64,000 nucleotides of DNA, taken from positions 124,001 through 188,000 of the forward strand of contig NZ_CP139976.1 of assembly GCF_034424625.1 (NCBI RefSeq), in the 5' to 3' direction. This DNA comes from Janthinobacterium lividum. Its GTDB lineage: Bacteria; Pseudomonadota; Gammaproteobacteria; Burkholderiales; Burkholderiaceae_D. The notes below the pieces were generated by a model, which did no database searches, was not told the DNA's origin, and saw nothing but the letters and a program-made list of their open reading frames with translations. Shown here in pieces: positions 10,477 through 64,000 of this stretch; position 1 is the first letter of the stretch; each line of letters begins with the position of its first letter. The position numbers were made by a program, and so were the translations under genes.

Positions 10477-10480
10477 CATG

Positions 10481-10500
10481 GGTTTGCGCTATCGCAAACC
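10481..10500. repeat. Second small inverted repeat
   Basis: GGTTTGCG and CGCAAACC form a perfect 8-bp stem with a 4-base loop, starting 4 bp after the previous hairpin. Its role is unknown; together the two form a tandem hairpin between genes. Confidence 0.6.
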
Positions 10501-10600
10501 ACTGGCGCGCCTGTCCATTAAGCTCATGGGAAGGCAGGCGCCACCGCACTCCTCACTGGCAATTGCCGATTTTCCTGCTAGGCTGGATACAGGAGCGTCC

Positions 10601-20274: not shown

Positions 20275-20300
20275 AATCGGCTTTCTGCTACTGAATGTGT

Positions 20301-20969: not shown

Positions 20970-20981
20970 GCTCGTTCCTTG

Positions 20982-22473
<1,492 letters not shown>

Positions 22474-22519
22474 GATAAGTCCTTGATATTGAATAATGTA
22501 GTGATGGGGTGTGCCGCAA

Positions 22520-41335: not shown

Positions 41336-41497
41336 GGGGCGCATTTTTGTGTAAAGGTCGTATCCAAATCGGCAACAGGCAATATTATCCGCCATACAGC
41401 CGTTGCTGGCTTGATTCACACACGCTCTTTGAGCAGTTTTAATGCGCGATGCCTAAAAAATAAGTATTTAATACGACACTTGGGACCCGCCGGCAGC

Positions 41498-41525
41498 AAA
41501 AAAGGCCCGTCACGGGCCTTTTTTT
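41498..41525 (-). terminator. Strong terminator closing the TPS/TonB cluster
   Basis: A perfect 12-bp stem (AAAAAAGGCCCG with CGGGCCTTTTTT) and a 3-base loop, with T-runs on both strands. It lies 19 bp after the YbjN-like gene and marks the end of the cluster; it could also stop plus-strand transcripts. Confidence 0.92.
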
Positions 41526-41543
41526 CCGCCGTTGGCCCGCTTG

Positions 41544-42047
41544 TCAGGCCGGCACAGTTTCTTCTTCTGCCACGTTGGCGGCTTCGACGAGCGGAGCGGT
41601 GCTCGTATCGGCCGGCGTAAAGTTGCGCAAAAACAAGAAGAACTGGCCCATCATCTGCGTCCACAGTTGCAGATTGATATTCAGGTACTCGCGGCTGACG
41701 CCACCGGCGACCAGTACATCCATTTCCAGCACGACGAAATCGCCATGCTGGGCTACGCGGGCAAAACGCTTGCTGCGGTGCCATTCGGCCAGCAAGCCGG
41801 CCGGCAAGTCGCCGCCCTGCACGCGCAGCGGGCAGCTCAGGGTCAGATCCGCATACTGGCCAGGCGATGCTTCATTGCCCCACAGCACCTGAAAGCCGAT
41901 GCCATGGCTGGCGCTGTGCAGGCGCACGACGCCGTCGTGTTCGATGCTGGTGACGGCGCAGCCGGCCGCCTTGATGGCCTCGGCCGTTTGTTCCGCATTC
42001 AGGGTGGTCAGCAAGCTATTCGTGTTTTCCATCGTCATTCCATTCAT
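41544..42047 (-). CDS. YbjN-like domain protein
   Basis: 167 residues (start at 42047; in-frame ATGs at 42038 and 42032 are alternatives). No signal peptide. The central part (VVRLHSASHGIGFQVLWGNE and RFARVAQHGDFVVLEMDVLV) and the C-terminal helix (REYLNINLQLWTQMMGQFFLFLR) match the YbjN family, whose fold is related to type III secretion chaperones (family knowledge, not tested). It follows the coiled-coil gene by 14 bp and is the last gene before the terminator, so it belongs to the TPS/TonB transcript. A role as a cytoplasmic chaperone for the system is speculation. Confidence 0.65.
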   Translation of the reverse strand: MNGMTMENTNSLLTTLNAEQTAEAIKAAGCAVTSIEHDGVVRLHSASHGIGFQVLWGNEASPGQYADLTLSCPLRVQGGDLPAGLLAEWHRSKRFARVAQHGDFVVLEMDVLVAGGVSREYLNINLQLWTQMMGQFFLFLRNFTPADTSTAPLVEAANVAEEETVPA

Positions 42048-42061
42048 TTCAAAAAGTAAAA

Positions 42062-42757
42062 TTACTGGGGAGCCGGCGCGGGCGCGGCCGGCGTTGCTGC
42101 CGCTTCGGTTTGACGCGCATCAAAGCGCCCCTGGTACAGCTGATCACCGTACTGCTGGGCAATCTGTTCGAGTTTCACTCTGCTTTGCGCGGCGAACGGC
42201 TGGCGCGCCTTCATGACGTCCAGCACGTCGAGTCCTTCATACGCTTGGAGGATTTCCTGTCCGGCCGCATACAGCTGGGCATTCTTGCTTTCGCAGCGTG
42301 CCAGGGCGCCCCGCTGGGCCGCCACTTCGCCGTCGAGACGCGCACGCTCCGCTTCGATCTGCTTGCCCGTGGCGGCCAGCTGTTCGCTGGCCTGGCGGTA
42401 CTGCGCCAGGCTGGCGCTTGCCTCTTGCGCGGCGGCGGCGCTGCGCTGTTGCTGCTCGCCCAGTTTTTCCCGCTGCGCGCGCTCCTGCGCCAGTTGCGAC
42501 TGGCTGCGTGCCAGCTCCTTTTTCAAGCCATCGCTGGCGGGCGCGGCGGCAGCCGGCGCCGCCTTGGCGGCAGGCACGCCCTTGGCTTTGAGCAATTCCA
42601 GCTCGCCGCGCGTCTGATGCAATTGCGCCGTGACATTGCGCAACTCGGCCCGCAAGCGCTCTTCCATGCTCTGCCCCTTCTGCGCCTGGGCCGTGCCGGC
42701 GGCCAGCAAGCTCAGCAGCAGTAAAGGCAGGCGCATTTTGTTGGATATCAACATCAT
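42062..42757 (-). CDS. Periplasmic coiled-coil protein (hypothetical)
   Basis: 231 residues. AAGGAG lies just before two adjacent ATG codons (42757 and 42754) and overlaps the porin stop; the second ATG has the better spacing. A signal peptide ends near AAGTAQA. The middle (about 30-165) is a long Gln/Glu/Ala-rich coiled coil with one cysteine (GALARCESKNAQ), and the C-terminus is Ala/Pro-rich. It may be a periplasmic scaffold for the upstream TonB system; the function is not known. Confidence 0.8.
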   Translation of the reverse strand: MMLISNKMRLPLLLLSLLAAGTAQAQKGQSMEERLRAELRNVTAQLHQTRGELELLKAKGVPAAKAAPAAAAPASDGLKKELARSQSQLAQERAQREKLGEQQQRSAAAAQEASASLAQYRQASEQLAATGKQIEAERARLDGEVAAQRGALARCESKNAQLYAAGQEILQAYEGLDVLDVMKARQPFAAQSRVKLEQIAQQYGDQLYQGRFDARQTEAAATPAAPAPAPQ

Positions 42758-42763
42758 GGCTCC

Positions 42764-44503
42764 TTAAAAACGCGCGTTCAATTCGATTTGCAGGGTGTCG
42801 ATCGACAGTGCCGAACCGAACACTTCGCGGCTCGACGTCCAGCGGCCGTTCAGCCAGGTATTCTTGTCGAGCGCATACGCGCCGCCCAGGTAGTAGCCGC
42901 GCGCATTCGTGCCGCCCAGGTGGAAGGTGGAATCGTTGTAGGCGTCAGGCAAGGCATCCGGTTCGATGCGCTTGTAGCCGAGCAACACGTTCCAATCGCC
43001 GCGCGCCGCAGGGCTGGCCTTGCCCAAGGTCGCCTGCAGCATGTAGGCATTGCCGCCGCTCCGGAAATCGGCTTGCGAGACGCCGCCCGTGCCGCCGAAG
43101 TTGTTCATGATGCCGCCCTTGGCGCGCGCCCACATGGCGTTCTTGTCGTAAGCCATGTTGCGCACATAATCGCCTTCGATGCGCAAGTCCGTGCCGCCGG
43201 CAACCTTGCTATCCCAGCGCGCATTCAGATTGGCCAGGCGGAATTTCGAGGCCAGGCCCACGAATTGCGGCTGCGGCGTATTCGCCGGGTCCAGCGGGTT
43301 CAGAGCGATATTGCGCAGCAGCATCAAGCTATTGCCTTTTTGCATGCTCGATGGACGCGACCAGTCCGTGCTGCAGCCATCGGCGCCCGCGTACAGGGCG
43401 CACGGCTGCGAATACTCGCCGCTGATATTGCGGAAGTTGTAGTAAGCCAGTGCGCCGCGCAACTGATGGTCGCTATTGATCTTCCACGAAGCGCCCACTT
43501 GCGCGCCCAGCAGCCACTTGTTTTCGCTGGACATCTTGGCCTGGCTGCGGCTAGGAGCATTGTCGGATGAATACTCGAGCGGAATCAGGCCCAGGGTACC
43601 AAACACGGTGACGTCCTTGCTGTCGCCGAGGGGTTGCTGCACCTTGGCGGCGATGCCGTCGAAATTGAGTTCGCTGGAAAACAGTTCATCGCCGGAAACG
43701 AACGGGTTATCGAAACGGCCCGCCGTCAGTTTCAGCCAGGAAGCGGGCTGGTAAGACAGCCAGGCCTGGTCCAGCCAGATGTTCTTCTTGCCCAGGCCGC
43801 CACCGAGGGTTTGCGTGGTGGACACGGGGCTGTCGTCATTGCCGCTGGCCAGGCGGATGCCCGCTTGCGTGCTGTCGGAAATGTCGGCCAGGATGCCCAG
43901 GCGCGCGCGGGCGCGCAGCAAGTGCTTGCGGTCTTCGCGCGTGTTCAGCAGCGCCGGCAGGGCCAGGTTGGTATTCGAATTGACGTCGTAGCCGCTGCCG
44001 CTGTTGAGCGAACGCCAGTCGATCTCGATATTGCTGTTGGCCATGTCGTAATAGCGCGATTCGTAGCGCGCGCGCACATCGCCTTCCAGGCGGATGCGCT
44101 TGGTCCAGGCCGGCGTTTCATTCGGCGCGGCCCAGCCGCCTGCTTTTGCCTCGGCCATGACCTGGCCCTTGATCTCGTCGCGGATCTGCTCGCGCACGGT
44201 TTGCGAAATATACGGCACGCGCACGTCGCCCGCCTGTACCTGCGCCAGGGCCGCCGGCGCGGCGGCCGGGCGGGCTTGCGCCGCGGCCAGCGCTTCACTC
44301 TGCGCCTGCGCCAGCAGTGCTTCGCCGGCATCCTTATTCAGGGCGCCGCTCTGGATCAGACCGCGGATCAGTTTGACCATGGTGCTGTCGGCCGGTGCCG
44401 CGGACTGGGCTTGTGCTGCGCCTGCCGCCACGCTCAGGGCCAGGGCAGCCAGCGCCAGCGGAAGGCGGCGCAGGCGCTGCGAGGGAGAAAATAAGGAATT
44501 CAT
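42764..44503 (-). CDS. Putative outer-membrane porin (Porin_5-like)
   Basis: 579 residues. The signal peptide ends near GAAQA. A short helical N-terminal region (about 40-130) precedes a beta-barrel with alternating aromatic and polar strands (RIRLEGDVRARYESRYYD, WLSYQPASWLKLTAGRFDNP) and a terminal phenylalanine (LQIELNARF), the usual outer-membrane end signal. It matches the 'putative porin' family often seen near TonB-like genes. It may be the outer-membrane partner of the TonB transducer, but no plug domain is visible. Confidence 0.88.
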   Translation of the reverse strand: MNSLFSPSQRLRRLPLALAALALSVAAGAAQAQSAAPADSTMVKLIRGLIQSGALNKDAGEALLAQAQSEALAAAQARPAAAPAALAQVQAGDVRVPYISQTVREQIRDEIKGQVMAEAKAGGWAAPNETPAWTKRIRLEGDVRARYESRYYDMANSNIEIDWRSLNSGSGYDVNSNTNLALPALLNTREDRKHLLRARARLGILADISDSTQAGIRLASGNDDSPVSTTQTLGGGLGKKNIWLDQAWLSYQPASWLKLTAGRFDNPFVSGDELFSSELNFDGIAAKVQQPLGDSKDVTVFGTLGLIPLEYSSDNAPSRSQAKMSSENKWLLGAQVGASWKINSDHQLRGALAYYNFRNISGEYSQPCALYAGADGCSTDWSRPSSMQKGNSLMLLRNIALNPLDPANTPQPQFVGLASKFRLANLNARWDSKVAGGTDLRIEGDYVRNMAYDKNAMWARAKGGIMNNFGGTGGVSQADFRSGGNAYMLQATLGKASPAARGDWNVLLGYKRIEPDALPDAYNDSTFHLGGTNARGYYLGGAYALDKNTWLNGRWTSSREVFGSALSIDTLQIELNARF

Positions 44504-44540
44504 TGTTTCTTTCGAAAAAAATTAATATGAATTGGGGACG

Positions 44541-45257
44541 CTATGGCCGGCGGCCTTTGATGGATACGCGGGCCGGGAAACGCAGGGATGCCGGTGGCCG
44601 CTCATCGGCGCGGAAGTCGCGCACCATGGCCAGCACTTGCTCATCCGTCTGCGCATTGCCCGTGCCTTGCACCAGCTGCACCTTCGTCGTCTTGCCTTCC
44701 GTATCGAGCCACAGGTCGACGCGGATGTCGGCAAACGCCAGCTGGCGCGTGCGCGGGTCGCGGGCAAAGGCCAGCTGCAGCGCGTTGGCCACATAGCGGC
44801 CATACGATCCCGCACCGAGGCCGCCGCCACCGCCGCCGCCCGTCATGCCGCCGCCGCGCCCGGCCTGGATGCCGAAGGCATCGCTGCCGGCCTGCGCCGC
44901 GCCGTCGATGGTGACGGGGTCGCCCTTGTCCGGCGACGGGCTTTCCGGCGCGTCATCCATGGGCTTGTCGGCCGGCGTCGGTTCCGGCTCCGACACTTCC
45001 GGCACCACCTTGTCCGGCGTCGGTTCCGGCAGTTTTTCCGGTTCCGGTGGCGGTGGCGGCGGAGGAGGCAGCATCAGCATCGGCGGCGCCGCCACTTCGC
45101 GCTTGGTGGCTGCCGTGTCCGACAGCAAATACCAGACCAGCGCGGCCAGCGCGCCAGCCAGCAGCACGCCGCCGGCCACGCCGCCCCAGCGGCGCCACCA
45201 CTGCGCCGCGCCCGACGATTCCGAGGCGGCCATCTTCATCATGTCGTCACGCTTCAC
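44541..45257 (-). CDS. TonB-like energy transducer with proline and glycine linkers
   Basis: 238 residues from a GTG start at 45257, supported by GAGGAG 7 bases upstream that overlaps the exbD stop. One membrane helix (about 25-47) anchors a Pro-rich spacer (LMLPPPPPPPPEPEKLPEPT) and an acidic segment. A glycine tract (about 135-150) follows, then a TonB-C-like fold (IRVDLWLDTEGKTTKVQLVQ). TonB couples ExbB/ExbD proton flow to outer-membrane proteins. The pair of linkers is unusual. No TonB-dependent receptor lies in the window. Confidence 0.85.
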   Translation of the reverse strand: MKRDDMMKMAASESSGAAQWWRRWGGVAGGVLLAGALAALVWYLLSDTAATKREVAAPPMLMLPPPPPPPPEPEKLPEPTPDKVVPEVSEPEPTPADKPMDDAPESPSPDKGDPVTIDGAAQAGSDAFGIQAGRGGGMTGGGGGGGLGAGSYGRYVANALQLAFARDPRTRQLAFADIRVDLWLDTEGKTTKVQLVQGTGNAQTDEQVLAMVRDFRADERPPASLRFPARVSIKGRRP

Positions 45258-45267
45258 CTTGCGCTCC

Positions 45268-45678
45268 TCATGCCGGCTTGCCGGTCACCAGGCCCACCTG
45301 GTTCAGGTCGATGCGGCGCAACAAGTCCAGCACTTCGACCACTTTCGCGTATTGCACGGCGGCATCGCCGCGCACGATTACGGGGAAGTCGGGCGTCAGG
45401 GCCTTTTCCGTGCGCAGGCGCTCTTCCAGCTCGGGCAAGGTGACGGGATAGGCGTCGAGGAAGACCTGGCCCGCGTTGTCGATGGTGATGGCCTTGGTCT
45501 TCGGTTTTTCCAGCGCCACGGCCGAACTGGCCTTGGGCAGGTCGACCTTGATGCCGGGAATGCTGGCGTTGCTGGTCAAGATGAAGATCACCAGCACCAC
45601 CAGCAGCACGTCGACGAAGGGCGTGATGTTGATGCCGCCGCTACGCTTGCGGGGGGTAAACTTGGCGGAGGTGGCCAT
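45268..45678 (-). CDS. exbD: ExbD/TolR family biopolymer transport protein
   Basis: 136 residues from the ATG at 45678 (MATSAKFTPRK); the longer frame to 45789 overlaps the upstream gene. One N-terminal membrane helix (INITPFVDVLLVVLVIFIL) with the conserved Asp of the proton path is followed by a periplasmic domain. It sits 13 bp after the ExbB-like gene and 10 bp before tonB. Confidence 0.94.
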   Translation of the reverse strand: MATSAKFTPRKRSGGINITPFVDVLLVVLVIFILTSNASIPGIKVDLPKASSAVALEKPKTKAITIDNAGQVFLDAYPVTLPELEERLRTEKALTPDFPVIVRGDAAVQYAKVVEVLDLLRRIDLNQVGLVTGKPA

Positions 45679-45691
45679 GGTTATGCGCCCC

Positions 45692-47473
45692 TCACGCCTG
45701 TTGCAGCACGGGACGCATCTGGCGTCCGTCGCCCTGCTCTTCAGCCAGGCGCGTGGCGAACTCATCGACGAAGACGGCCATGTCGGCAACGATGGCGTCC
45801 GAACGCGAGGACAGCCAGTTGTAGCCGAACAGGGCGGGAATCGCCACGCCCAGGCCGGCCGCCGTACACAGCAGCGCTGCCGCCATGCCCGGCGCCACCG
45901 AGTTGATGTCCACGGCGCCGGCCATGGCCGCCACGACGAACACCAGCATGATGCCGATCACGGTGCCGAACAGGCCGACATATGGCGCGCCTTCGATGGT
46001 GGTCGAGAGCCAGATCATGCGTTTCGACATGCGTTCGCTTTCGCGCACCATCACGCCATCCATGGCGGCGCGGATGGCGCCGATGGTCGCGTTCGAGACC
46101 GCGTTCAAGTCGTAGCCGCGGTCATGGCGGCGGCGCATTTCGTCGATGGCCACGTCATACAGGCGCCACAGCGAGGAATCCGTCTTCACGGAAGCGCTCA
46201 GCTTGCCGTTGCGCGCCAGGTGGTCGAGCGGCGCGCCGGCTGCTTCGTGGAACGACTGCATGAATTGCGCATTGGCGCGCGAGATGGCGCCATAGCTGCG
46301 GCCCTTGCCGATCATGATGATCCACGACAAGACCATCATCAGGCCCAGCACGCCGACGACGATCCACGCGTCGAGCGGCATGGCGGCGATGATGAAGCCG
46401 AAATGGCTTTTGCCCGCCTGCTGTTCATCGGCGCCAAACACGGCCAGGCGCGATTCGGAACCTTGCGAGACGGCGTCGGCCAGCAGCAGGGCATCGGGAC
46501 GGGCCGTGCGCGACAGGCGCAGCTCGTCGATGGCGCCCGTGAAGTTGTTCAGGGTGGAGGTACCGGAGGCGACCGGCGGCGCATCGGCGCCCACCGAGGC
46601 GGCCGTCGTGAAGGCTGGCAGCGCGGTGGCCAGCGACACGGCCGGACGGCCGCCCACGTACAGGGCCACGTTGGCTTTATCGGCTTTCACGGCCAGGTGC
46701 GACCATTGCGCGGCCTGGATCGGTTGGCCTGGCTTGCTGCGCTGGCCATTCACCTGCACGAAAGGCACGCCCTGGTCGACGCCGATCAGCAATTCATTGG
46801 CGCCGTCGCGGCGCGCATACAGCACTTGCTGCGGGCCCAGGTTATCGGGACGTACCCAGGCGGAAAAGGTGAAGGGCGCGCCGGCGGCCAGCGCCAGCGA
46901 AGGCGAGGCAGGCAGCATCAGCGGTGCCGTACCCAGGCGGGCGCCGGCGCCGATGACGGAACCGTCCAGCGCCGGCACGGCCGTCTGGGCATGGTTGCCG
47001 TAGGCGGTGCTGTCGCGCGAAGGCACGCCAGGCTCGGTGAAGTGGTACACCAGGCTGTAGTCGGGGTCGAAAGTACGCTGGCCATTGCCGGAAGCGGGCG
47101 CCTTCGGATTGCCGTAGTACATCCACAGCTGCTGCGGCGTGCCCGCCGTCAGGGCCGGCACGTCGACCCAGATCAGGGCGATGCCCAGCAGCGGGTTGAA
47201 CTGTTCGATCTGGTGGTTCAGCACCGTCTTGTCGTCGCCTGCCACGAAGCGCAGGTCGGCGCCGTTGTCGCTGACGCCTTCGAAGTTGAAGTTACCGGAA
47301 TGCAAGCGCAGCAGCACGGGAATGCGGCCGGGATCGCCGCCCACGGCGCCCGCCTTCGGGCCGGCGTCGACGGTGACGGGTTTGCGGTAAGCCCAGTCGG
47401 GCTGCCACCAGGCATGCGCCAGGCCGGGAACGAGCGTGCCCAGGATCGTGAGCAGAAAAAGAAAACGTTGCAT
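45692..47473 (-). CDS. MotA/TolQ/ExbB proton channel fused to DUF2341 and LamG domains
   Basis: 593 residues. A signal peptide (1-21) precedes a DUF2341-type region (about 25-150, including WWQPDWAYRKPVTVD and PQQLWMYYGNPKAP), then a LamG/concanavalin-like domain (about 165-325, including FTFSAWVRPDNLGPQQVLYA and FTGAIDELRLSR). Three membrane helices (about 367-388, 490-515, 520-550) form an ExbB-like channel, with TTIEGAPYVGLFGTVIGIM as core signature. Classic ExbB is about 240 residues, so the sugar-binding-like periplasmic half is an addition. GGAGA precedes the ATG. Confidence 0.92.
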   Translation of the reverse strand: MQRFLFLLTILGTLVPGLAHAWWQPDWAYRKPVTVDAGPKAGAVGGDPGRIPVLLRLHSGNFNFEGVSDNGADLRFVAGDDKTVLNHQIEQFNPLLGIALIWVDVPALTAGTPQQLWMYYGNPKAPASGNGQRTFDPDYSLVYHFTEPGVPSRDSTAYGNHAQTAVPALDGSVIGAGARLGTAPLMLPASPSLALAAGAPFTFSAWVRPDNLGPQQVLYARRDGANELLIGVDQGVPFVQVNGQRSKPGQPIQAAQWSHLAVKADKANVALYVGGRPAVSLATALPAFTTAASVGADAPPVASGTSTLNNFTGAIDELRLSRTARPDALLLADAVSQGSESRLAVFGADEQQAGKSHFGFIIAAMPLDAWIVVGVLGLMMVLSWIIMIGKGRSYGAISRANAQFMQSFHEAAGAPLDHLARNGKLSASVKTDSSLWRLYDVAIDEMRRRHDRGYDLNAVSNATIGAIRAAMDGVMVRESERMSKRMIWLSTTIEGAPYVGLFGTVIGIMLVFVVAAMAGAVDINSVAPGMAAALLCTAAGLGVAIPALFGYNWLSSRSDAIVADMAVFVDEFATRLAEEQGDGRQMRPVLQQA

Positions 47474-47529
47474 GACAGTGATTCTCCGAAGAAAAGTCTA
47501 AAAAAGTGCAGTGCTGGTGAGCTGGCCCG

Positions 47530-49179: not shown

Positions 49180-49320
49180 CTTCCATTCACCTTAAAATCA
49201 AACGGTTGCCCTGTGTTGCGGCGCTGGGCCGGCGTATTTTTGTTGCTAATGCTGATCTACTGATGCCTAGACAGCCGCCGCGCGCGGCGACTGCCGAATG
49301 TCATCAAATGTTCATAAAAC

Positions 49321-55300: not shown

Positions 55301-58300
55301 ATCTTGCGGCCGGCCAGGTCGAGCCTGGCGCCATCGCCCAGCACGACGTCTTGCTCGGCGGATACGCTGAGCTTGCCACTTGGCAGCAGCACGGCCGTGT
55401 CGAGCGTCACGCTGCGCCCGTCCAGCGCCACTTCGGCGCCCAGTGCGCCGGCCAGGGTGGCCGCATCCGGGGCCGCTGCGGCCGCCACCGATGGCTTGGC
55501 GACACGGATGTCGCCGCCCGCCTTGATCTTGTTGACGGAGCCGGCCGCGCCGGTGAGCAGCGCGGTGTTCAGCGCCAGGTTGCCGCCGCTGCGCAGATAG
55601 CCCTTGCTGGCCGTATCCCAGCCGCTTTGCGACTGGTACACCGATAACGATCCCGTATGGTTGGCGGTGATGCGCTCGCTGGCGTTGAACACGACGTCGC
55701 CAAAGCCGAGGATCAAGCGATCCATGCTGTGGATCGTGTCGGGCCGGCTGTTCGGGCCATAGCCAAACTCGACCTGGCGGGCGTCGACCTGCAGGCGCCC
55801 GCTGCCGCTGCCGGCGCCGCCAGTGGCGACCAGGCCCGGCGCGGTCGTGGCGCCGTTCCACACCAGTACGTCGGTCTTGATGCGCGCCACGGCATCGCTG
55901 CCGCCGGCGCCGTAGATCGCCGGAGTGCCGATCACCAGCCGCTCCAGCGACGATTTTCCCGTACTCGCGTTGATGGTCGACAATTCGACGTTGTCATAGA
56001 AATTGATGGCGTCGCGCGCCGTCAGCGCCAGGCTTTCCAGCGCCGGCGCACCCGCGCTGGCGTCGCCGCGCAGCAGGCGGTCGAGGATGCCCTGGTTCAG
56101 GGTCAGTCCGGCCGGCAATGCGTCGCGCGCGGCCATGGCGTCCAGCGACGCTGCGCTGCCCACATTGATGCCGCCCACGGCCAGCACCAGGTTGCGGGTG
56201 CCATAGGTAGTGGCGTCGCGCAGATTGAAGCTCTGGTCGGTGGCGGCGACAATGCTGCCTTCCGAATACAGCGGCGTGCTGCCGCTGCACACTGCGCCCG
56301 CCGCGCAGGCGCCGATGTCGATGCGGCCCGGTCCGGATCGCGGATCGATACTCACGCCGGGCGCCAGCATGTCCAGCCGGCCATTCGACACGGCCAGCAC
56401 GCTGGACGTGCCCGGCGCATACACGTAGCCATTGCCCGAATCCCAGGCGGCGGCGCCACGGCCCAGGGTATTGATGCCACCACCCTGCTCGATGACGATG
56501 CCGCCTGCCTTGCTATTGGTCACCAGGAACACTTCGCCAGCCTTGAGCACGGCGCCGTCGCGCACCACGATGTTATCGACGCCGCCCTGGAACTGGGCGA
56601 TATTCGCTTGCTGGTTGCCGGTAACGCCGCTGTAGTTGACGGTGGGTAAACCGCCAATGCCCAGGCGCGGGGCGCCGATGGCGTTCAGGGCTTCCGCCCG
56701 CACGGCGATCCCATCGAAGCCGACGGTAGGCGCGCCGGCGCTGCCGATGATTTCGTAATTCTTGCCGGAACCGCCCAGCAGCAGCGCGCTGCCGCCGAAA
56801 CCGTCCTTGCCTGGCGTGTAGTTGGTCGTGCCGGCAAAGCGCAGAGCATCGTCGGTGCTGGCCTTGGACTGCACCAGTTCGATGTGCAGCGCCTTGGCGT
56901 CGCGTTCGAGCAGCGGCCGCGGCACGCCGTCGCGCACCGCCTGCGCCAGCGCGAATGCGCCGTAGCTCGTTTCATTGTATTGCGAATAGCTGCGCAGCAC
57001 GTCGGCCGGCGTCAGCACCGCCTGCGATGGCAGCACCGTGCGCCGGTCGGTATTGCTGGTGCCCAGCTGCACGGCGGTAGCAAACGAGCCGTTGCGCATG
57101 GCCGTGGCCGACCCGACAGGCAAGCCGCCGGCGGCCAGGCCGTTCAGCTCCACCCGGAACGCGCCGGGCAGCAGCGCAAAGCTCGACGGCAGCAAGGTAT
57201 AGGTGCCGGCGGCCAGGCCGGGCACGCCGGCGCCGATGGTGATCTGGCGCCCCAGCGCCGGATCGCCGGCGCCATTCTCGGCCACGATGGGCGCATAGCC
57301 CGCCTGCGCGCCCGGAACGATGGCGTAGACGGGATTGGTGGCCAGGCCCGGCAGCACGAAGCCGCCTTTGCCGGACGTCTGCACCAGCGGGTTGAGGCGG
57401 GCGTCGGTCGAGCCGCCGCGTCCGGCCAGGAAGGCCGCGCCGGTCAGGGTGCCACCGCCTGACAGGTCGAGCACGGCGCCCGCGCGCACATCGACGTGTT
57501 CGCCGGTGAGCACGACGGCCGGGTCATTGCCCACGCCCTTGTATGCGACGTCGACGCCGTCCATCATATAGCTCAGGCCATCGAGCGAGCCGCCGTACGG
57601 CATCACCAGGCCGTTGGCGCTGACCGACGTCACGCTGCCAGGCAGCAGATTGGTGTGGCCCGTCACTGCGCCATTCGTATTCTGGCCCAGCGTGATTTTG
57701 CCCAGCGGCGCGCGCACCACGCCCCCCTGGTTCACCGTGCCGGCACTCAGCTCCAGCGAGCCGAACACCGAGTAGGGCAGGGCCGGCAACGGCGCGCCAG
57801 GGTCGCCGCTGCGCTCGATGGTCAGCTTGCGGGCCGGGTCGAACTCGGTCGCCAATTGCCCGAATTCGTTGATCACGTTGCGTTTGCCCACCTCCACCTT
57901 GCCGGTAGCGCCGCTCACCGGATAGATTTGCGCGCCCGCCAGGGTCAGATTGCCGGGCGTGTACAGCGCGGCCGCCGTGCGCATGCGGATATCGCCGCTT
58001 GAGCGCAGCGCCAGCTCGCCGAAGGCATCGCGCTTGACTTCCAGGTCGGCGGCGGCGTTTTGCACGATCACACCGTTGCTGCCGACATTGACGGCATTGG
58101 CGAGGTCGATCAGCGCGGCATGCAGCGTCAGGCTGGCGTGGTCGTCCACGTTGGGCACGCCCAGTTTGCCGCTGCCGATGCCGCCGTTGCCGGAGCCGCG
58201 CACCGGGTTCGGCATCAGGTGGTCGTCGCTCTGGGTGCGGCTGCTGCCGGCCAGACGGATGTAGGGCGCCGCCAGCTTGACTTGCGCGGTGGTGGCGGCG

Positions 58301-61300
58301 TCGGCATGCTCGGCCAGGGCCAATGCGCTGGCGGTCAGGCGCAGGCTCTGGCCCAGCGACAGGTCGAGGTTGCCGTCAAAACTGATCAAGCCATTCGACA
58401 GCAGGGCCAGATGGTCGAAGCCGCCGGCGGCCACGCGGTCCGCACCCAGCCGGGCCACGCCGTAGCGCAGCGCCGGATCGCTGTCGCCCACCTGCAGGTC
58501 GGCAGCCAGGCCACTGTCGCCCTGCAGGCGCGACAGCACCAGCTCGCGCGGCACGCGCACCGCATCTTCCACGCCCAGGCCCTTCAAGTCGAGCTTGCCG
58601 ACGATGCCGTAGTTCGGGGCTTCCAGGTTGAGCGCCAGCGTGCCGCCGGCCGCGCCGGCGCCACCGGCTGCCGCATGCAGGCTGCCGTCGAGCAACAAGC
58701 CGCGGAAGGAACCGAGCGCGATGCTGCCGCCGTCACCGGCCACCTGCACGCTGCCCTGGCCGGGCAGGTCGAGCCGGGCGGCGGCGCCGGACGCTTCCAG
58801 GCGTGCGCCGGGGCGCACGATGACAAAGGCGTCGGCCGCCTCGACCTGGGTGGCGTCGAGATTGTGTTTTGCACCGATCTCGATGGTGCCGCCGGCACCC
58901 ACATGGCCATACACGCCGCCCTGGGCGTCGGTGGCGGTGGCCGCGCGTCCGGCCACGTCGAGTACCGCGCGCTCGCCGATCCAGATCGACTGGGCATTGG
59001 CGCTGCCGTCTGGACGGTTGATCTCGCCACCGGTGACTAGCGTGCCCGGCAACACGGAAATGCGGCCGCCGGCCGCGCTCAGCGTGCCTTCCACGGTTAT
59101 CTGGCCGTTGCCGGTCAGGCTGATGCTCTTGCCGTCATCCACGCGCAGCGTGGCGCCCTCGCCCACCACCAGCGGCGCCTTGGCGTTGCGGGTGCCGGCC
59201 GACAGCGCGATATCGGCGCCGGCCCGTTGCTTGAGCACGCCTTTCACGGCATTTTCCTGCCACAGCGGCGCCAGCCACGGTTGCAGGACGGCGGCTGGAT
59301 CGACGCCGGTAGGCAATTGGCCCGCCAGCGCCAGGTCGGCGCGCAGCAAGGGCATGCTGACGTCGATGGTGGCGTCCTGCGCCACTTGCACGCCTTGCTG
59401 GCCATTGATGTTGTAGTGCGCAAAGCCGCGCTGGAACAGGTCATTGTCCAGCACCAGCAGCGGCTTGACCGCCAGGTCCGTCGGCGCACGGTTACCAGCC
59501 AGCAAGCGATCGCCCGCCTGCAAGGTCACATCAAACGCGAACGCCGTACCGGCGGCCACCCTGGCGTTGAAAGCGGGCACCGGCATGCCGTTCGGGAAGG
59601 CGTCGGCCGGCACCAGGTAGCCGGAACCGAGCTTGCCGCGCACGCCCGTGAGCGTGACGCCGGCCGGCACGGTCATGCCACTGGTGTAGACGATGCCATT
59701 GCTGCCGGTGACGGTGATGTATTCATAGCTGATCGAGGCCGGCGGCACCACCCAGGCGGCCGGCAGGGTGTACGGGCGCGCCGCGCTGAAGTCCGGCAAG
59801 TCCAGCAACGGCTGGCCGGGCTGGACCTTCGTGCTGATATAGCTGAAATCGGTATCGAGCACGGTGCCGGCCTTGATGGTGAAGGCTGCTGCCAAGGTCA
59901 GGTGCACGGGGACGGACTGGCCTGCAGGCAACACACCATTGCCGGCCAGCGCGCCGCCGCCCAGCACCACGCCGGTGCCGCTGTCGATGGTCAGCGTGCC
60001 GCCGCCGTTGACGCCGTAGCCGCGCAGTTCGCCATCGAGCACCAGCGCTTCCGACTTGACGCCGTTGAGATCATTCTGATTCGCGCGCAAGCTGATGTCG
60101 CCGCCGCGCCCGCCCTTCAGCTTGCCGTCGGCCAGCACGGCCGCGCCCGAGGACGTGTCGATCGCGCTGCCGGCTGCCAGGTTGACGGTACCGCTGCTGA
60201 CCAGCGCCACCGACCCGCCGTTGACATAGGGTAAGCCGGACGTGTTGCCCGGATCCAGCTTGAGCTGGCTCCACAGGCCGCGCGTGTCAAGCGTCACGCC
60301 GGCCGTCACATCGATGCCCACCTTTGCTCCGGCCGCGGGCGTGGCGACCGTTGTATCGACCCAGTTGCTGGTGCCATTGGACAGCTTGCTGACGATGTCG
60401 CCCAGCGCAATGCTGCCGCCGCGCGCCGTCAGGCCGGCATTGACCTTGACCTGGGGCGCATGCAGCGCGATGTCGCCGCCAGGCGTGACTTGCACCGCAG
60501 CGTCGACCTCGATGGCGCTGCCGGCGTAGGCCTTGATGCCGCCCAGGTGTTGCGCGTTGAGCCAGCCGGCGTCCAGGTAGGTCTTGCCGACCAGGTTTTC
60601 GGGCAGCGCGTCTTCGCGCAGGAGATTGCCGGCGCTGGCGCCGCCGGTGCCGATATGGATGGCCTGCAGCAGCGCCGCGGGATTGTCGCGCAGCTGCGTG
60701 CTGGCGGCGTCATATACCGGCGCCAGCTGGCCCAGCACCAGCTGGCCGTTGCGGGCGGCGGCCAGTTGCGACTGACGATAACTGTCGAGGCTGGCATCGC
60801 GCGCGTCCTGCTGGCGCTCGCCCTGGAATACGCCCGATTCGATCGCGCCTTCCAGCACGGCCGATGTGGTTCCCACCACCACGCGGCCCGCGTCACGGCC
60901 CACGGTATAGCCGTTTTCCAGCCGTTGCTGGGCGCCGATCAGGGGATTGGCGAAATTTTCCGTCGTTTCCGCGCCCCAGCGCTGGTGGTGCGCGGCGTAG
61001 CCTTGGTACACGCCCGTATACAGCACGTCGCCGGGCGCGGTCGACAGCCTGTACAGCTGGCCATCCTTGCCGCTGAGCCAGCTCTGGCGAATCATGCCCG
61101 TCTGGACGTCAAAAGTGCCGCCGGACACGTTGAGCAGAGAGCCGGCCTGGGTCACCAGTTCACCGCCCTGGAAAGCCACCGTGCCGCCCTGTGCCGCCCA
61201 CTCGCCGATGCCATGGCCGCTGGTGTTCAGATAACCGCTCACTTCGAGCAAGCCGCCGCCCGTGTACCAGCGGTCGGTCGGATAGCCATTCGTGCCTGCC

Positions 61301-63000
61301 GCCACCCGCACCAGGTCGCGCCGGTCGACCCACAGGTCGGTGCTGTTGAGGGCCTTGCTGTCGCGGTTGCCGGGCGCGTCGCGCTGCTCGTTGCCCTGTG
61401 CATTGATCAGCACGTTGTTCGAAGCCATCGCCACGTTGACGCCCACGGCGCCGGAGACGTCGATGCTGGCGCCGCGCGACACTTGCGTGCGGCGCGTGGC
61501 CAGCGCATTGACCTGGCCGCCGGTGGCCAGCGTCAGCGAACCGGTATCGAAGGCGATATCGCCGCCGGAGGCAATCTGGATCAGCGACAGGTCGCGGCGG
61601 TTGTAGGCGCCGTCGCTCGGCAGCGCCGAATCCTTGATGAGCGCGTCGCGCTGCACGTCCAGCGCGGTGGCGCCGCTGTCGTCGAGCAGCACCGTGGTAA
61701 GGCTGTCCGGCGCCAGGGTGACCAGGCCTTCGCTGCCGTCGGCCTTCAGGTGCACGGTGCCGCGTGTCGTCACGCTGGTGCTGCTGAGCAGCACGCCGGC
61801 CTGCTTCACGTCGCGGCCCGTCAGGGTGACGTCGCCGGTAAGCGCCTGCACCAGGCCGCTATTCGTCACCTTGCCGGCGCCGCTTTGCGCATTGAACTTG
61901 ACGTCGACCTCGTTGCCACGCGTGCTCGAAGTCTGGTTGGCATCCGTCCCCAGGCCCTTGCGGATGACGAAGCTGTCGCCGGCGGCCAGCGTCACCTGAC
62001 CGTTCGGCGCGGACAGGCTGCCGCCGTTATGCACTTCGCGCCCGGCCAGCAGCACATAGCCGCCGCCTTCCGTCACCGTCTGCGGCTTGCGCGTGCTGAT
62101 CTGCGCGCCAGCCTGCACCACCACGTCGGCCGTGGCGTTGGCGTGCGTGGCCACGCTGCCGTTGAGCACCAGATCGTTGGCCAGCGTGGGCTTGAAGCCC
62201 GAGCCCTGCGTTTCGCTGTAGATGCCCTTACGGAATTGGCTGTCGCTCATGCCCACGGCGGCGGCCACCAGACTGCGCGTGTCGACCTGGCTGCTGCCCG
62301 TAAACACGATGCCATTGCGGTTGACCAGCATCACCGTGCCGTCAGCCTTGATCTGGCCGCGGATCTGGCTGGGACGGGCCAGCGGATCGTTGACGCGGTT
62401 GAGTACGGACCAGTTCGCCAACTGGTCAAATTGCAGGGTGGTATTCTGGCCGATATTGAACGTTTCCCAGTTCAGGATCGCCTTGTCGGCCGTCTGCTTG
62501 ACGGTCACCACGGTCTTGCCGTCGGCCTGCGCCTGCGTGGGGCCATTCGCGTTGAACCAGCCCGCCGTCAGGCTGTTGCTGTCGACCTTCAAGCCGCCTT
62601 CGGCCAAGCCTTCCGGCACCTTCGAGCCGGCGGCAATGGCCGCCTGGCGCGCCGCCTGCTGGGCCGCCTGCTGCACGGCGATGGCGCGTGCGGCCAGTTG
62701 CAGATTGTTCAGCGAACTTTGCAGCTGTGCATTGGCTTTTTGCTGCTGCGCCTGCTTATTGTCCGTCCCGATGATGGCCTGGCCATTCGGCAAGCGTCCC
62801 GTGGCGGCGGCCGTGCCCTGCTGCGCACCCTTGCCGGCAAACCAGGCACCGCTGAATGGCTGCTGCGCCTGCGCGCCGCCCGCCTGCAGCAGCACGGCGA
62901 TGGCCAGCGCCAGCGGTTTCAATCGCACCGGGCGACCAATCCGGTTGCCCGCCATGGCGGAGGAGGATGCGTGTTTCGTGACCGACTTGCTTCGCTGCAT
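49321..63000 (-). CDS. Giant two-partner-secretion exoprotein (filamentous haemagglutinin family, TpsA)
   Basis: A single 13.7-kb frame of 4559 residues. An extended basic N-terminus and signal peptide end near AQAQ (about 46). Residues about 80-125 form a Gln/Ala-rich helical stretch not seen in typical TpsA proteins. The TPS secretion domain (about 137-300) has LNWETFNIGQNTTLQF, VLNRVNDP and the NRNGI motif at 227-231. A long beta-helix of repeated GG/AGT-type turns follows. A single close cysteine pair (CAAGAVC, about 2231) and an Asp-rich YDGDGFPDTP loop (about 3113) are embedded in it. The C-terminal region matches the DUF3739 filamentous-haemagglutinin type (GGRTLVGVDGGFVPGEGSGV, GGNILAWSAQGDINAGRG). 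AAGGGA precedes the ATG. Probably a secreted or surface-tethered adhesin. Confidence 0.93.
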   Translation of the reverse strand: MQRSKSVTKHASSSAMAGNRIGRPVRLKPLALAIAVLLQAGGAQAQQPFSGAWFAGKGAQQGTAAATGRLPNGQAIIGTDNKQAQQQKANAQLQSSLNNLQLAARAIAVQQAAQQAARQAAIAAGSKVPEGLAEGGLKVDSNSLTAGWFNANGPTQAQADGKTVVTVKQTADKAILNWETFNIGQNTTLQFDQLANWSVLNRVNDPLARPSQIRGQIKADGTVMLVNRNGIVFTGSSQVDTRSLVAAAVGMSDSQFRKGIYSETQGSGFKPTLANDLVLNGSVATHANATADVVVQAGAQISTRKPQTVTEGGGYVLLAGREVHNGGSLSAPNGQVTLAAGDSFVIRKGLGTDANQTSSTRGNEVDVKFNAQSGAGKVTNSGLVQALTGDVTLTGRDVKQAGVLLSSTSVTTRGTVHLKADGSEGLVTLAPDSLTTVLLDDSGATALDVQRDALIKDSALPSDGAYNRRDLSLIQIASGGDIAFDTGSLTLATGGQVNALATRRTQVSRGASIDVSGAVGVNVAMASNNVLINAQGNEQRDAPGNRDSKALNSTDLWVDRRDLVRVAAGTNGYPTDRWYTGGGLLEVSGYLNTSGHGIGEWAAQGGTVAFQGGELVTQAGSLLNVSGGTFDVQTGMIRQSWLSGKDGQLYRLSTAPGDVLYTGVYQGYAAHHQRWGAETTENFANPLIGAQQRLENGYTVGRDAGRVVVGTTSAVLEGAIESGVFQGERQQDARDASLDSYRQSQLAAARNGQLVLGQLAPVYDAASTQLRDNPAALLQAIHIGTGGASAGNLLREDALPENLVGKTYLDAGWLNAQHLGGIKAYAGSAIEVDAAVQVTPGGDIALHAPQVKVNAGLTARGGSIALGDIVSKLSNGTSNWVDTTVATPAAGAKVGIDVTAGVTLDTRGLWSQLKLDPGNTSGLPYVNGGSVALVSSGTVNLAAGSAIDTSSGAAVLADGKLKGGRGGDISLRANQNDLNGVKSEALVLDGELRGYGVNGGGTLTIDSGTGVVLGGGALAGNGVLPAGQSVPVHLTLAAAFTIKAGTVLDTDFSYISTKVQPGQPLLDLPDFSAARPYTLPAAWVVPPASISYEYITVTGSNGIVYTSGMTVPAGVTLTGVRGKLGSGYLVPADAFPNGMPVPAFNARVAAGTAFAFDVTLQAGDRLLAGNRAPTDLAVKPLLVLDNDLFQRGFAHYNINGQQGVQVAQDATIDVSMPLLRADLALAGQLPTGVDPAAVLQPWLAPLWQENAVKGVLKQRAGADIALSAGTRNAKAPLVVGEGATLRVDDGKSISLTGNGQITVEGTLSAAGGRISVLPGTLVTGGEINRPDGSANAQSIWIGERAVLDVAGRAATATDAQGGVYGHVGAGGTIEIGAKHNLDATQVEAADAFVIVRPGARLEASGAAARLDLPGQGSVQVAGDGGSIALGSFRGLLLDGSLHAAAGGAGAAGGTLALNLEAPNYGIVGKLDLKGLGVEDAVRVPRELVLSRLQGDSGLAADLQVGDSDPALRYGVARLGADRVAAGGFDHLALLSNGLISFDGNLDLSLGQSLRLTASALALAEHADAATTAQVKLAAPYIRLAGSSRTQSDDHLMPNPVRGSGNGGIGSGKLGVPNVDDHASLTLHAALIDLANAVNVGSNGVIVQNAAADLEVKRDAFGELALRSSGDIRMRTAAALYTPGNLTLAGAQIYPVSGATGKVEVGKRNVINEFGQLATEFDPARKLTIERSGDPGAPLPALPYSVFGSLELSAGTVNQGGVVRAPLGKITLGQNTNGAVTGHTNLLPGSVTSVSANGLVMPYGGSLDGLSYMMDGVDVAYKGVGNDPAVVLTGEHVDVRAGAVLDLSGGGTLTGAAFLAGRGGSTDARLNPLVQTSGKGGFVLPGLATNPVYAIVPGAQAGYAPIVAENGAGDPALGRQITIGAGVPGLAAGTYTLLPSSFALLPGAFRVELNGLAAGGLPVGSATAMRNGSFATAVQLGTSNTDRRTVLPSQAVLTPADVLRSYSQYNETSYGAFALAQAVRDGVPRPLLERDAKALHIELVQSKASTDDALRFAGTTNYTPGKDGFGGSALLLGGSGKNYEIIGSAGAPTVGFDGIAVRAEALNAIGAPRLGIGGLPTVNYSGVTGNQQANIAQFQGGVDNIVVRDGAVLKAGEVFLVTNSKAGGIVIEQGGGINTLGRGAAAWDSGNGYVYAPGTSSVLAVSNGRLDMLAPGVSIDPRSGPGRIDIGACAAGAVCSGSTPLYSEGSIVAATDQSFNLRDATTYGTRNLVLAVGGINVGSAASLDAMAARDALPAGLTLNQGILDRLLRGDASAGAPALESLALTARDAINFYDNVELSTINASTGKSSLERLVIGTPAIYGAGGSDAVARIKTDVLVWNGATTAPGLVATGGAGSGSGRLQVDARQVEFGYGPNSRPDTIHSMDRLILGFGDVVFNASERITANHTGSLSVYQSQSGWDTASKGYLRSGGNLALNTALLTGAAGSVNKIKAGGDIRVAKPSVAAAAAPDAATLAGALGAEVALDGRSVTLDTAVLLPSGKLSVSAEQDVVLGDGARLDLAGRKIDFNGVAKYSWGGEVVLDSRHGDVRQAAASSIDFSAVSNRAGKLTASALDAQAGSVALLGSIAGGSSGHYDAGGTDVPFAAGGLDVRGQHIEDFKGLNQRLTKGGVFGSRSFQLKQGDLVLDSELKAREITVSVDGGHLAVNGTVDASGEQVGSIRLAARDGVRVAGGALLDAHGSVLRVDSYGQVIEAPNRAVIDIDAGSGRLVLETGAHMDLRAGTAGKADQIASLGTLELSARRLGGATGNDVAIDAAGPLAIDGARAITVNGFWSYNDAAPGTDAGADGRPYQVINQAYLDRKHDDSVAFMTGALANDGLMNGRLSGLRKDKDAFHLRPGVAILSATPDGDLHVDGDIDLSGYRYASVNPHTQQTGVAGSGEAGALVLRAGGNLNVFGSINDGFDGKALPVTPDDKGWMLAKGRVPFGADVIVPHGQLVTLADDTFFQPGRTLNYDLPMKAMSLRAGTALPSQATLTAEVELPAGTVLGGAVRNAAGDIVYAAGTVLAKAVTLGSGTRLDAGTRLPVGMSVAAMTWPGGVPLPFPVGAVRDTPSPDYDGDGFPDTPANGVVLAGELQLRKGALVPSETWVRLPGGADSVALRPGDADGNQGRNWALAPMLASGSQSWSMRLVAGADMQAADSRALRPMGDNRSLLLTDHHYGAVLGLSLPSVAAPPIDGVAGNFYWMGDSELYLGNPAGTLINLADFSSVEELLAYNQWGVGDLVTWLPEGASFPMVPKPARQQLFSVLRTGTGDLDLLAGGNFNQSSPYGVYTAGTQAANVAAAYRLPRAADRKGSILGADGDAFKPYVDGGAQSLYQAWYPEHGGNVLVRAQGDVTGDLVGGGYSTERRPDDVGYLRPQQDSSAVGTWLWRQGTGSAVAQGEGVPTAWWINFGSYVAGGLGTNYLYETQPVMTGFTGIGTLGGGNLVFEAGKAAGMLSPRTDQGGKFAMRSQGLNLAVASTGRVSADGSALTLTGGGDLDVRIGGGLNPVAEVRSFADTTGEITPDTRFSGTRGDLNSTFVNLRGALRMEAGSVGGIELRFDKGDSQESRAYQVYTATSSIAGGGPVVVPGDSGVRIDARGDLVLGGVGDAGRVTQINNGTPFTAKGVAQDGEGYSWFSLWTPSTAIDLFSAGGNLTPSTAWSDDRASGNQASSGGRFVMPSQLRAVAASGSLYMGNSAQGATDTGTNTLARPATGLLLAPSPVDAHFTRRTPGQLELLAADSIYAGAYSVTASGADPTALPSPFNPGFAGVSGLTVYGDTYTHNVNQEAQAPSVLFASREAGATPQRYPLFTLTPPTASGYAVQDQLPARYYALAGDIIGLRTGSIITRGGGNAASHSTWYEGAGPVDIRAGRDIVNSGTALGLVEATPQGLLGWTSEIAYANPSLPLRPTENFVGSARGNLILHNNPDEVSVVRAGRDIRYGTFYVGGPGTLEVTAGRDIDMADKAELKSIGAVTNRASGDRSSGASIAVAAGVGAHGPNYDAFAARYLDAANLIDPGKSLADQPGKAVAVYGGRLGLADWLRAEFGYSGDAAGAPAFLAARQSELDKTLQASTGGSRRDLQREYGLSSQLHLVNWLETRYGAGQRNGAGLTFDAGSMDARKFFAALPAEQQRVFLRNVYFAELKAGGREYTAAGGVREGSYLRGREAIATLFPTKDAQGKPVTYAGDLTMFSGATYYLDGASGGSTRRPRKGVNYLTRQQYVLGGDTHAPVFDLQDAGIHTDFGGNIDILTPGGRTLVGVDGGFVPGEGSGVLTQGAGEIQIYARDSILLGQSRIFTTFGGNILAWSAQGDINAGRGSKSTVVFTPQRRVYDDIGMVSLSPTTPNTGAGIATLNPIPEVPPGDIDLIAPLGTIDAGEAGIRVSGNVNLAALQVVNAENIQVQGKSTGMPAIAAVNVGALSNASAAASQAVTAAQEVLQRERAATRQAQPSLFTVKVLGFGNEQADEAGVGKLKGGEPQASTYQPAGVVQVLGAGPLTAPQLQALTPSERRGLQP

Positions 63001-63135
63001 GGCGACATTCCCTTTTCATGTTCCGTTGCTGACCGATATCGCGAGGCGGCGCGCGGCACGCACGGGGCGGGCGGCAGGCACTGATTCGCGGCTTCCAGCA
63101 GCATTGACAGGGAACAAGGTCCGGGACTGCAAAAG

Positions 63136-63151
63136 GTCATGAAAATGTCAT
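63136..63151. promoter_or_regulatory. Pho-box-like direct repeat upstream of the giant exoprotein gene
   Basis: GTCAT occurs at 63136-63140 and 63147-63151 on the plus strand, an 11-bp period with an A-rich spacer, as in PhoB boxes (CTGTCAT half-sites). It lies about 136 bp before the exoprotein start but is oriented away from it. Recognition by an OmpR/PhoB-type regulator is speculation. Confidence 0.25.
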
Positions 63152-63180
63152 AATTGGCGAGATGCCATCGGCCTGCATCG

Positions 63181-64000
63181 CTAGCCAAACAGCACGATGC
63201 CGCCCGGCAGCCGCGTCACCCGCGCGCCATACGCGTCCTGGATCAGGGCGATCACATCGTCGAGGCGGTCGAGCGAAAAACTCGCTTGCACGCGCGTGTG
63301 CTTCAAGGCCTCGCCATTGAGGATCAGCTTGCCGGGACGGTAGCGGTTCACCTCGTCCACCACCTCGGCCAGCGTGCTTTGTTTAAATACCAGCAGGCGC
63401 TGGCGCCACGCGCTGACGTCGCCCTTCGCCACCGCACGCGCGATGCCGAAATGCTCGGGCCGGTAACGCAGCTGCTGGCCCGCCGCCAGTTCCGCATCGT
63501 TGCCGGCCTGCGCCACGCGCAGGCGGCCCGCCAGGCAGGTCACGCACACTTCCTGGCCGAACAAGCGGATATTGAAGCGCGCGCTGCCGGCCGACACCGT
63601 GCCGTCGCCCGCCTGCACGCGCACCCTCGCCGCGCCGCGCAAGCCGGCCTGGAATTCCGCCTCCCCCGCCAGCAGCACCAGCGACGCGGCGCCATCCTGC
63701 AGCGGCGCCGCATCGAGGCGCGTCTGCGTATTCATCTGCACCAGCACACCGCCATCGAGCGCCACTTCGCGCTGCTCGCCCGTGCCGGTGGCGTAGTCGG
63801 CAGCGAGGCCCGCCACGGCCGGCCACAGGTCCGTGGGCGGGCGCAGCACCAGCAAGCCCAGTGAGGCGGCGACGGCGCCACCGAGCCAGGCGCGCCGCGC
63901 CACGTTCACGGGCGTCTGCGCCCGCTTGACGGCGCGCGCGGCCGGCGCCATGGCGCCCCACACGGCGCGCGCCTCGGCAAACGCATTGGCATGCTTGCGG
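63181..64000 (-). CDS. FecR family anti-sigma/signalling protein (cut by window edge)
   Basis: At least 273 codons; the frame runs off the right end, so the N-terminus is missing. The first visible residues (HANAFAEARAVWGAMAP) match the end of the FecR N-terminal DUF4880 domain. A membrane helix (AWLGGAVAASLGLLVL) is followed by the FecR periplasmic domain and a C-terminal STN-like DUF4974 domain (QSTLAEVVDEVNRYRPGKLI). FecR proteins relay an outer-membrane signal to an ECF sigma factor, which would be encoded just beyond the edge. It heads the TPS/TonB cluster, 180 bp before the exoprotein gene. Confidence 0.9.
   Translation of the reverse strand, partial: RKHANAFAEARAVWGAMAPAARAVKRAQTPVNVARRAWLGGAVAASLGLLVLRPPTDLWPAVAGLAADYATGTGEQREVALDGGVLVQMNTQTRLDAAPLQDGAASLVLLAGEAEFQAGLRGAARVRVQAGDGTVSAGSARFNIRLFGQEVCVTCLAGRLRVAQAGNDAELAAGQQLRYRPEHFGIARAVAKGDVSAWRQRLLVFKQSTLAEVVDEVNRYRPGKLILNGEALKHTRVQASFSLDRLDDVIALIQDAYGARVTRLPGGIVLFG

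Follow-up and report, generated by a model that had tools for sequence, protein, structure and literature searches.

A two-partner secretion locus with its own TonB-type motor and porin in Janthinobacterium lividum, a well-supported member of the Pdt/PUMA3 class

Why should a two-partner secretion (TPS) pair be encoded together with a TonB-ExbB-ExbD motor and a porin of its own? The question is raised by a gene cluster of Janthinobacterium lividum at the right-hand end of the window, that is, the whole 64,000-nucleotide stretch analysed here (positions 124001-188000 of contig C1 in the two-contig 6.76-Mb genome G000). An earlier note, made from the sequence alone, had presented this cluster as an undescribed system. 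That reading is ruled out, as the same cluster has been published as the PUMA3/Pdt locus of Pseudomonas aeruginosa (PMC2729926, PMC7035377). Judged by its genes and their order, membership of the locus in the Pdt/PUMA3 class is well supported; in this class, a giant DUF3739-type exoprotein TpsA and its transporter TpsB come together with an ExbBD/TolQR-like motor, a TonB and a Porin_5 protein of their own.

The named genes all lie on the minus strand and run in a single direction, right to left, from FecR through TpsA, TpsB, the ExbB fusion, ExbD, TonB, Porin_5 and a coiled-coil-like protein to YbjN. The earlier note had described this run and its closing terminator, and the analysis confirms it. 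Its expectation of an extracytoplasmic function (ECF) sigma gene to the right of position 64000 was borne out, and its proposal of FecR control agrees with the pairing of FecR with that sigma gene just right of the window. Features are listed from right to left; adding 60000 to an L003 position gives the window position.

L003:4681-5409, right of the window: VreA-like protein of 242 amino acids with an STN domain (44.7 bits) and a TonB-C-like domain (homology by hhalign)
L003:4121-4714, right of the window: open reading frame for a VreI-like ECF sigma factor (Sigma70_r4_2, 57.0 bits)
63181-64128, minus strand, of which 63181..64000 is in the window: FecR-type, VreR-like anti-sigma factor (FecR 47.8 bits, DUF4880 40.0); the gene crosses the window end and its start was picked by eye
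63134..63151, plus strand: Pho-box-like site before tpsA (11/14 consensus bases)
49321..63000, minus strand: TpsA, exoprotein of 4559 amino acids (N-terminal TPS domain 77.6 bits, C-terminal DUF3739 and tail)
47530..49179, minus strand: TpsB, outer-membrane TPS transporter (POTRA_2 56.8 bits, ShlB barrel 76.6 bits)
45692..47473, minus strand: ExbB/TolQ-type motor subunit with a periplasmic extension (DUF2341, Laminin_G_3, MotA_ExbB)
45268..45678, minus strand: ExbD/TolR-type subunit with the channel Asp conserved
44541..45257, minus strand: TonB-like linker protein with a GTG start (NCBIfam TIGR01352, 29.6 bits against a cut-off of 27.1)
42764..44503, minus strand: Porin_5 protein (PF16930, 633.7 bits)
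42062..42757, minus strand: coiled-coil-like protein with a signal-peptide-like start, counterpart of PA0697
41544..42047, minus strand: YbjN-family protein (Pfam), counterpart of PA0698
41498..41518, minus strand: intrinsic terminator GGCCCGTGACGGGCC-T6 at the end of the run

From spacing and orientation we infer that the whole run is one operon; additional promoters may sit in the 141 bp that precede tpsB and the 180 bp that precede tpsA. The exact terminator string has a single copy in the window and was absent from all 100 shuffles, and a generic terminator scan over that stretch did not list it. Pfam TonB_C matches the linker protein below its cut-off (E 0.007), with TIGR01352 above its own, and the coiled-coil-like protein has no Pfam family above cut-off. 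The TPS domain on TpsA and the POTRA domain and barrel on TpsB identify the pair as two-partner (type Vb) secretion. An FhaC-like H1 helix and linker would lie between the signal peptide and the POTRA domain of TpsB, where inspection by eye of 19 of 77 TpsB sequences found a short variable stretch; such a helix is predicted in most TpsB proteins and is dispensable for activity (PMC5422565). A TonB box in TpsB was rejected, no conserved stretch preceding the POTRA domain in the 19 of 77 sequences inspected.

The published P. aeruginosa locus comprises vreA-vreI-vreR, pdtA (PA0690), pdtB (PA0692), exbB2, exbD2, tonB4 and PA0696-PA0698, with PA0690-PA0698 including a 'putative outer membrane porin' and a YbjN protein (PMC7035377). 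Two of its features are found here: the regulatory set of vreA (STN plus TonB/TolA-C), ECF sigma and FecR, and the order TpsA, TpsB, exbB2, exbD2, tonB4, porin, PA0697, YbjN. Compared with P. aeruginosa PA7, gene order is identical and the eight segments compared are 38.5-76% identical, namely, over the aligned stretches, the TpsA C-terminus 55%, TpsB 54%, ExbB 55%, ExbD 76%, TonB 40%, porin 56%, coiled coil 38.5% and YbjN 47%. The closest named relative of the ExbB fusion, in a Janthinobacterium bin, is 97% identical. Already in 2009 the regulators were linked to TPS, ExbBD and PA0696 homologues in six other bacteria, with Pseudomonas, Burkholderia, Rhodopseudomonas and Janthinobacterium named (PMC2729926), and in 2020 the Ton genes of the P. 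aeruginosa locus were termed uncharacterized (PMC7035377). We found no report on the role of the Pdt motor, be it in export, assembly, retraction or uptake, in the parts of the open-licence literature at hand; the dedicated PdtA/PdtB papers (Faure et al.) may hold motor data. The exbB2 of Sphingobium shares the name only, as that gene is a TolQ and unrelated (PMC8599685). No Hxc type II secretion genes were recognized by eye among the right-flank open reading frames, where no family search for type II secretion was made.

By the earlier note, its reading would fall if the motor genes were not conserved together with tpsAB; the neighbourhood search that it suggested, pairing DUF3739-type TpsA with the DUF2341-ExbB fusion, found them conserved together far above chance. 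Among 249 genomes drawn from the phylum, six carry the full-length fusion (E below 1e-60) and the same six carry DUF3739; 16 of the 22 genomes listed match the ExbB part alone and were not counted as fusions, and the G200 fusion is split into two pieces that share a frame. Among 274 genomes drawn from the class, 18 carry DUF3739, 17 the fusion and 16 both, out of 19 with at least one of them. DUF3739 without the fusion was seen in G344, with the match at a contig end, and in the 64% complete G438; the fusion without DUF3739 was seen near a contig start in the 85% complete G347. DUF3739 and the fusion lie at most 2.5 kb apart in 13 of the 16 genomes and 13-22 kb apart in the other three. Fisher tests for co-occurrence yield 3.2e-12 (249 genomes) and 8e-23 (274 genomes), uncorrected for genome relatedness and from draws that overlap (G000 and G019 are among the carriers). 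The fusion searches scored the top 4-5 candidates per genome, the match in G314 spans residues 175-582, and the VIA list covers chiefly model residues 130-579. POTRA_2, the mark of TpsB proteins, is present in 101 of the 249 genomes, and 95 of these 101 have neither the fusion nor DUF3739. Because the fusion and DUF3739 co-occur while most POTRA_2 genomes have neither, the motor is tied to DUF3739-type TPS and not to TPS generally, and the idea that all TPS systems need such a motor is ruled out. Chance clustering is ruled out by the Fisher tests together with the neighbourhood counts.

For those counts, named genomes were scanned with an alignment of the ExbB fusion and the best 80 of 553 confirmed relatives were kept, which favours close relatives; neighbour profiles were grown on the same 80 loci, and counts 'with room' omit 7 of the 80 for TpsB, ExbD and TonB, 8 for the porin and 13 for the coiled coil and YbjN. 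Every locus with room has ExbD and TonB (73 of 73 each); Porin_5 is present in 71 of 72, the coiled-coil protein in 59 of 67 and YbjN in 43 of 67, and 69 of 73 have TpsB upstream of the motor, no more than 3 kb away. For TpsA the count is 49 of all 80 loci, or 42 of the 60 that exceed 21 kb; since tpsA is longer than the 10-kb flanks, the misses are not proven absences. The sigma gene was detected at 23 and FecR at 24 of the 80. Judged from their record titles, carriers include Burkholderiales, Pseudomonas, Xanthomonadales, Sphingomonadales, Verrucomicrobiota and an Anaeromyxobacter bin, with Beta-, Gamma- and Alphaproteobacteria among them. In the phylum draw Porin_5 occurs in the same six genomes, apart from one weak fragmentary match, and its seven strong matches all lie within about 3 kb of the fusion. 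As far as we have seen, this breadth of the class and the near confinement of Porin_5 to the system are new to the literature found. Two side observations concern the same searches: a divergent, fragmentary Porin_5 match lies at G237:C53:152420-153385 (L152, L154) in a genome without the motor fusion, and a locus labelled Bacillus subtilis (L079) carries the cluster in an arrangement like that of Stenotrophomonas and Xanthomonas loci, probably from a mislabelled or contaminated assembly.

What kind of motor is this? The membrane part of the fusion scores better with TolQ (138 bits, cut-off 221) than with exbB (72.8 bits, cut-off 206.2), both below the NCBIfam cut-off, and its best structural neighbour by Foldseek is TolQ; the ExbD protein also stays below the curated cut-offs (ExbD_2 72.6 of 123.45 bits, tolR 96.7 of 127.3). 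The set thus matches neither a conventional TonB-ExbB-ExbD system, as ExbB and ExbD fall below cut-off and Pfam found neither a plug nor a receptor family in the run, nor Tol-Pal, as tolQ and tolR fall below cut-off and TolB and Pal families are missing from the matches of the run. With E. coli residues placed on the fusion by alignment, the channel Asp of ExbD is kept in 79 of 79 sequences and Thr504 and Thr537 of ExbB each in 81 of 81, residues whose roles in MotA/ExbB/TolQ motors have been described (PMC8599685). The predicted fusion model (predicted local distance difference test, pLDDT, 89.4) has strand-rich stretches at 29-143 and 177-321, matched by DUF2341 and LamG in Pfam, ahead of the membrane helices, and besides TolQ and ExbB Foldseek returned beta-sandwich proteins of differing function, such as a putative carbohydrate-binding protein and the arabinanase AbnA (domain 4); this predicted fold likeness is no proof of sugar binding. 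A search of open-licence literature for DUF2341 together with ExbB led to a paper that does no more than name the domain.

Structure predictions, based on 44 of the 72 available porins and 47 of the 74 ExbBs, give the Porin_5 protein a 16-stranded barrel and an N-terminal helical extension; a GDVRVPYV-type segment is conserved at residues 92-99. A sequence search of the PDB with the porin profile gave nothing useful, and Pfam at E 0.05 matched only Porin_5 and Porin_O_P to it, with no SLH domain. Among 26 TpsA C-termini DUF3739 is strongly conserved, and the tail with its two VQVLGxG-like repeats is less so; DUF3739 itself was not mentioned in the 10 of 158 open-licence papers listed. A second VreA-sigma-FecR-TpsA set, with a TpsA frame of 4244 amino acids and no adjoining TpsB or motor, lies in the same genome at G000:C1:3096650-3111709 (L125:7650 to L126:3709). 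In 200-residue windows the two TpsA proteins are 42-64% identical in 18 of 23 and 8-39% identical in the other five. As this second set lacks TpsB and motor, and as G200 has three DUF3739 places and a single fusion, the data suggest that one export and motor unit serves several TpsA. Further sigma and FecR matches were seen to the right of the second set, in L126. The genome also holds a separate TPS pair at G000:C1:5004350-5008930 (L002, L005), with a TpsB 29% identical and a TpsA frame of 2671 amino acids; no motor or porin profile match stands beside this pair in L005.

The C-terminal domains of the VreA-like proteins and of TonB are homologous by hhalign (98.7%, E 1.4e-16; 20 and 74 sequences, sets kept apart). 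With the TonB profile VreA scores 53.7 bits, against at most 16.2 for ten other TonB_C loci of the genome, and the converse search gave 47.0 against 15.5. By these profile scores the VreA domain appears closest to the operon's own TonB, which is new as far as we have seen; in 2009 it had been modelled on TolA at 9.3% identity, and binding to an outer-membrane partner was proposed (PMC2729926). In P. aeruginosa the locus depends on PhoB and VreI, and PhoB binds at three places, at vreA, pdtA and the pdtB-side promoter (PMC4971064). Pho-box-like sites occupy the matching three places here. Scored against what we take to be the 14 consensus bases of the Pho box, they reach 12/14 before vreA (L003:5498), 11/14 before tpsA and 10/14 before tpsB, and the tpsA site is one of two scoring at least 11/14 in the window. 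Across loci, tpsB upstream regions contain a site of at least 11/14 in 11 of 71, compared with 2.4% of control stretches, so that phosphate control is not established as general.

Beyond the gene content, co-conservation, domain homologies and conserved channel residues established here, we propose the following. Phosphate limitation, through PhoB, and the VreI-type sigma would turn the cluster on, and TpsB would export TpsA, which would retain its C-terminal DUF3739 as a handle. The inner-membrane motor, with its lectin-like periplasmic extension, would use protons to move TonB, which would dock at the outer membrane, most likely at the periplasmic stalk of Porin_5 near the GDVRVPYV segment. 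Docking would energise a Porin_5/TpsB/TpsA assembly, which could then export or release the surface fibre or control it mechanically. With a sister copy of the TonB C-terminus fused to its STN signalling domain, VreA might sense that docking site too and pass the signal to FecR. Two things favour action on this assembly: the parts are conserved as a set, and several TpsA seem to share one motor. We give an even chance to the explanation as a whole, the Pdt/PUMA3 identity combined with a motor acting via TonB on the assembly. That the class constitutes a distinct, widespread, proton-powered form of TPS, in which a dedicated TonB motor handles the DUF3739 exoprotein through Porin_5 and a regulator with a decoy TonB head senses the assembly state, is an extension that we regard as doubtful.

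Several points weigh against a motor acting on the assembly. By the prevailing view TPS proteins are exported without an outside energy source, and reconstitution experiments have achieved type V translocation without one (PMC5422565). The Glu that is generic in ExbB/TolQ (E. coli Glu-176; residue 532 here) is Ala in 77 and Gly in 4 of 81 fusions, whereas among generic ExbB/TolQ proteins (20 aligned of 24 other loci) it is Glu in 19 and Val in one, and the ExbB of another bacterium has been judged non-functional from the lost Glu and the lack of a mutant phenotype (PMC8599685). Ala or Gly at this position could mean a different proton or ion path; a motor without the usual Glu is, as far as we have seen, a new observation. 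In VreI-induced P. aeruginosa, single mutation of tpsA, tpsB, the tonB homologue or PA0696 left virulence in zebrafish at the wild-type level (PMC2729926), and VreI activity there does not need VreA (PMC7035377, PMC4971064). Co-conservation leaves the motor's target unspecified, GDVRVPYV is a candidate docking site by its conservation and position, and the second TpsA might use another TpsB. As for phosphate control, two other 11/14 sites occur in L003 away from vreA, tpsA and tpsB, and the best site before the second tpsA reaches 8/14, with 12/14 before the vreA of that set.

Would another division of labour account for the cluster as well? TpsA at the surface might bind a polymer or particle rich in phosphorus, which the TonB motor would then import via Porin_5, in the way HxuA feeds the TonB-dependent HxuC. 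The putative phosphate control of the cluster speaks for such uptake, which we therefore rank next best, as a possibility well short of even; it is weakened by the absence of a plug domain or TonB-dependent receptor from the Pfam matches of the run, by the presence of several TpsA per motor and by the lack of anything connecting the porin with a substrate. The stalked porin could instead act with the TolQR-like motor and TonB as an envelope tether, a link of the Tol-Pal or OmpM kind that stiffens the envelope or positions the fibre and moves neither TpsA nor nutrients. We consider this improbable, as no SLH or peptidoglycan-binding family was matched, neither TolB nor Pal is in the run, and phosphate and ECF control would be superfluous for a tether alone. 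Mere co-regulation of tpsAB with a motor and porin that do a separate job would fit the separate pdtA and phdA-pdtB promoters of P. aeruginosa (PMC4971064) and the four of 73 loci with room that lack TpsB within 3 kb before the motor, one of which (L100) yielded neither TpsB nor TpsA. Of the other three, however, two have TpsA ahead of the motor (L106, L109) and one has TpsB downstream of it (L108), and co-occurrence across genera is near perfect, so that we regard a shared regulon by itself as very improbable. The motor acting through TonB on the Porin_5/TpsB/TpsA assembly is our preferred reading.

Reviews name the energy source of TPS as an open question (PMC5422565 among them); because a whole subclass nearly always travels with its own motor, the question is open to a gene-deletion test. 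Porin_5, the DUF2341-ExbB fusion, DUF3739 and the unusual VreA receptor are also brought together here in a single setting. Elsewhere in the window, two SNF2-type helicase genes lie at 3662-7843 (plus strand) and 38231-41419 (minus strand), the latter just left of the cluster terminator, and long open reading frames without a Pfam match at E 1e-5 at 8514-10502 (minus) and 20295-22478 (plus) may be non-coding frames opposite genes.

Among known systems, HxuCBA haem acquisition in Haemophilus influenzae also encodes a TPS pair with a Ton-linked outer-membrane component, but HxuC is a TonB-dependent transporter, whereas the cluster here brings its motor along and its porin matches no plug domain. 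The Vibrio TonB2 systems resemble it in having a fourth protein beyond TonB, ExbB and ExbD, namely TtpC, an ExbB relative with a DUF3450 extension; those systems serve iron transport, carry a different extension and are not known to have a TPS partner. FecIRA-type signalling shares the ECF sigma, FecR and STN domain, but the 242-residue STN protein here has no plug or barrel family in Pfam and ends in a TonB-like domain. Attachment porins of the OmpM type have an SLH domain on the periplasmic side; unlike OmpM1 of Veillonella, the porin here matched none. The PUMA3/Pdt locus of P. aeruginosa differs in that here the regulators stand directly before tpsA, the 141-bp tpsA-tpsB gap is too small for phdA, the run stops after YbjN and the genome holds a second VreAIR-TpsA set at another place. 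What the two share is the same parts in the same order and a VreA joining an STN to a TonB-C-like domain; Pho-box-like sites are seen here as well.

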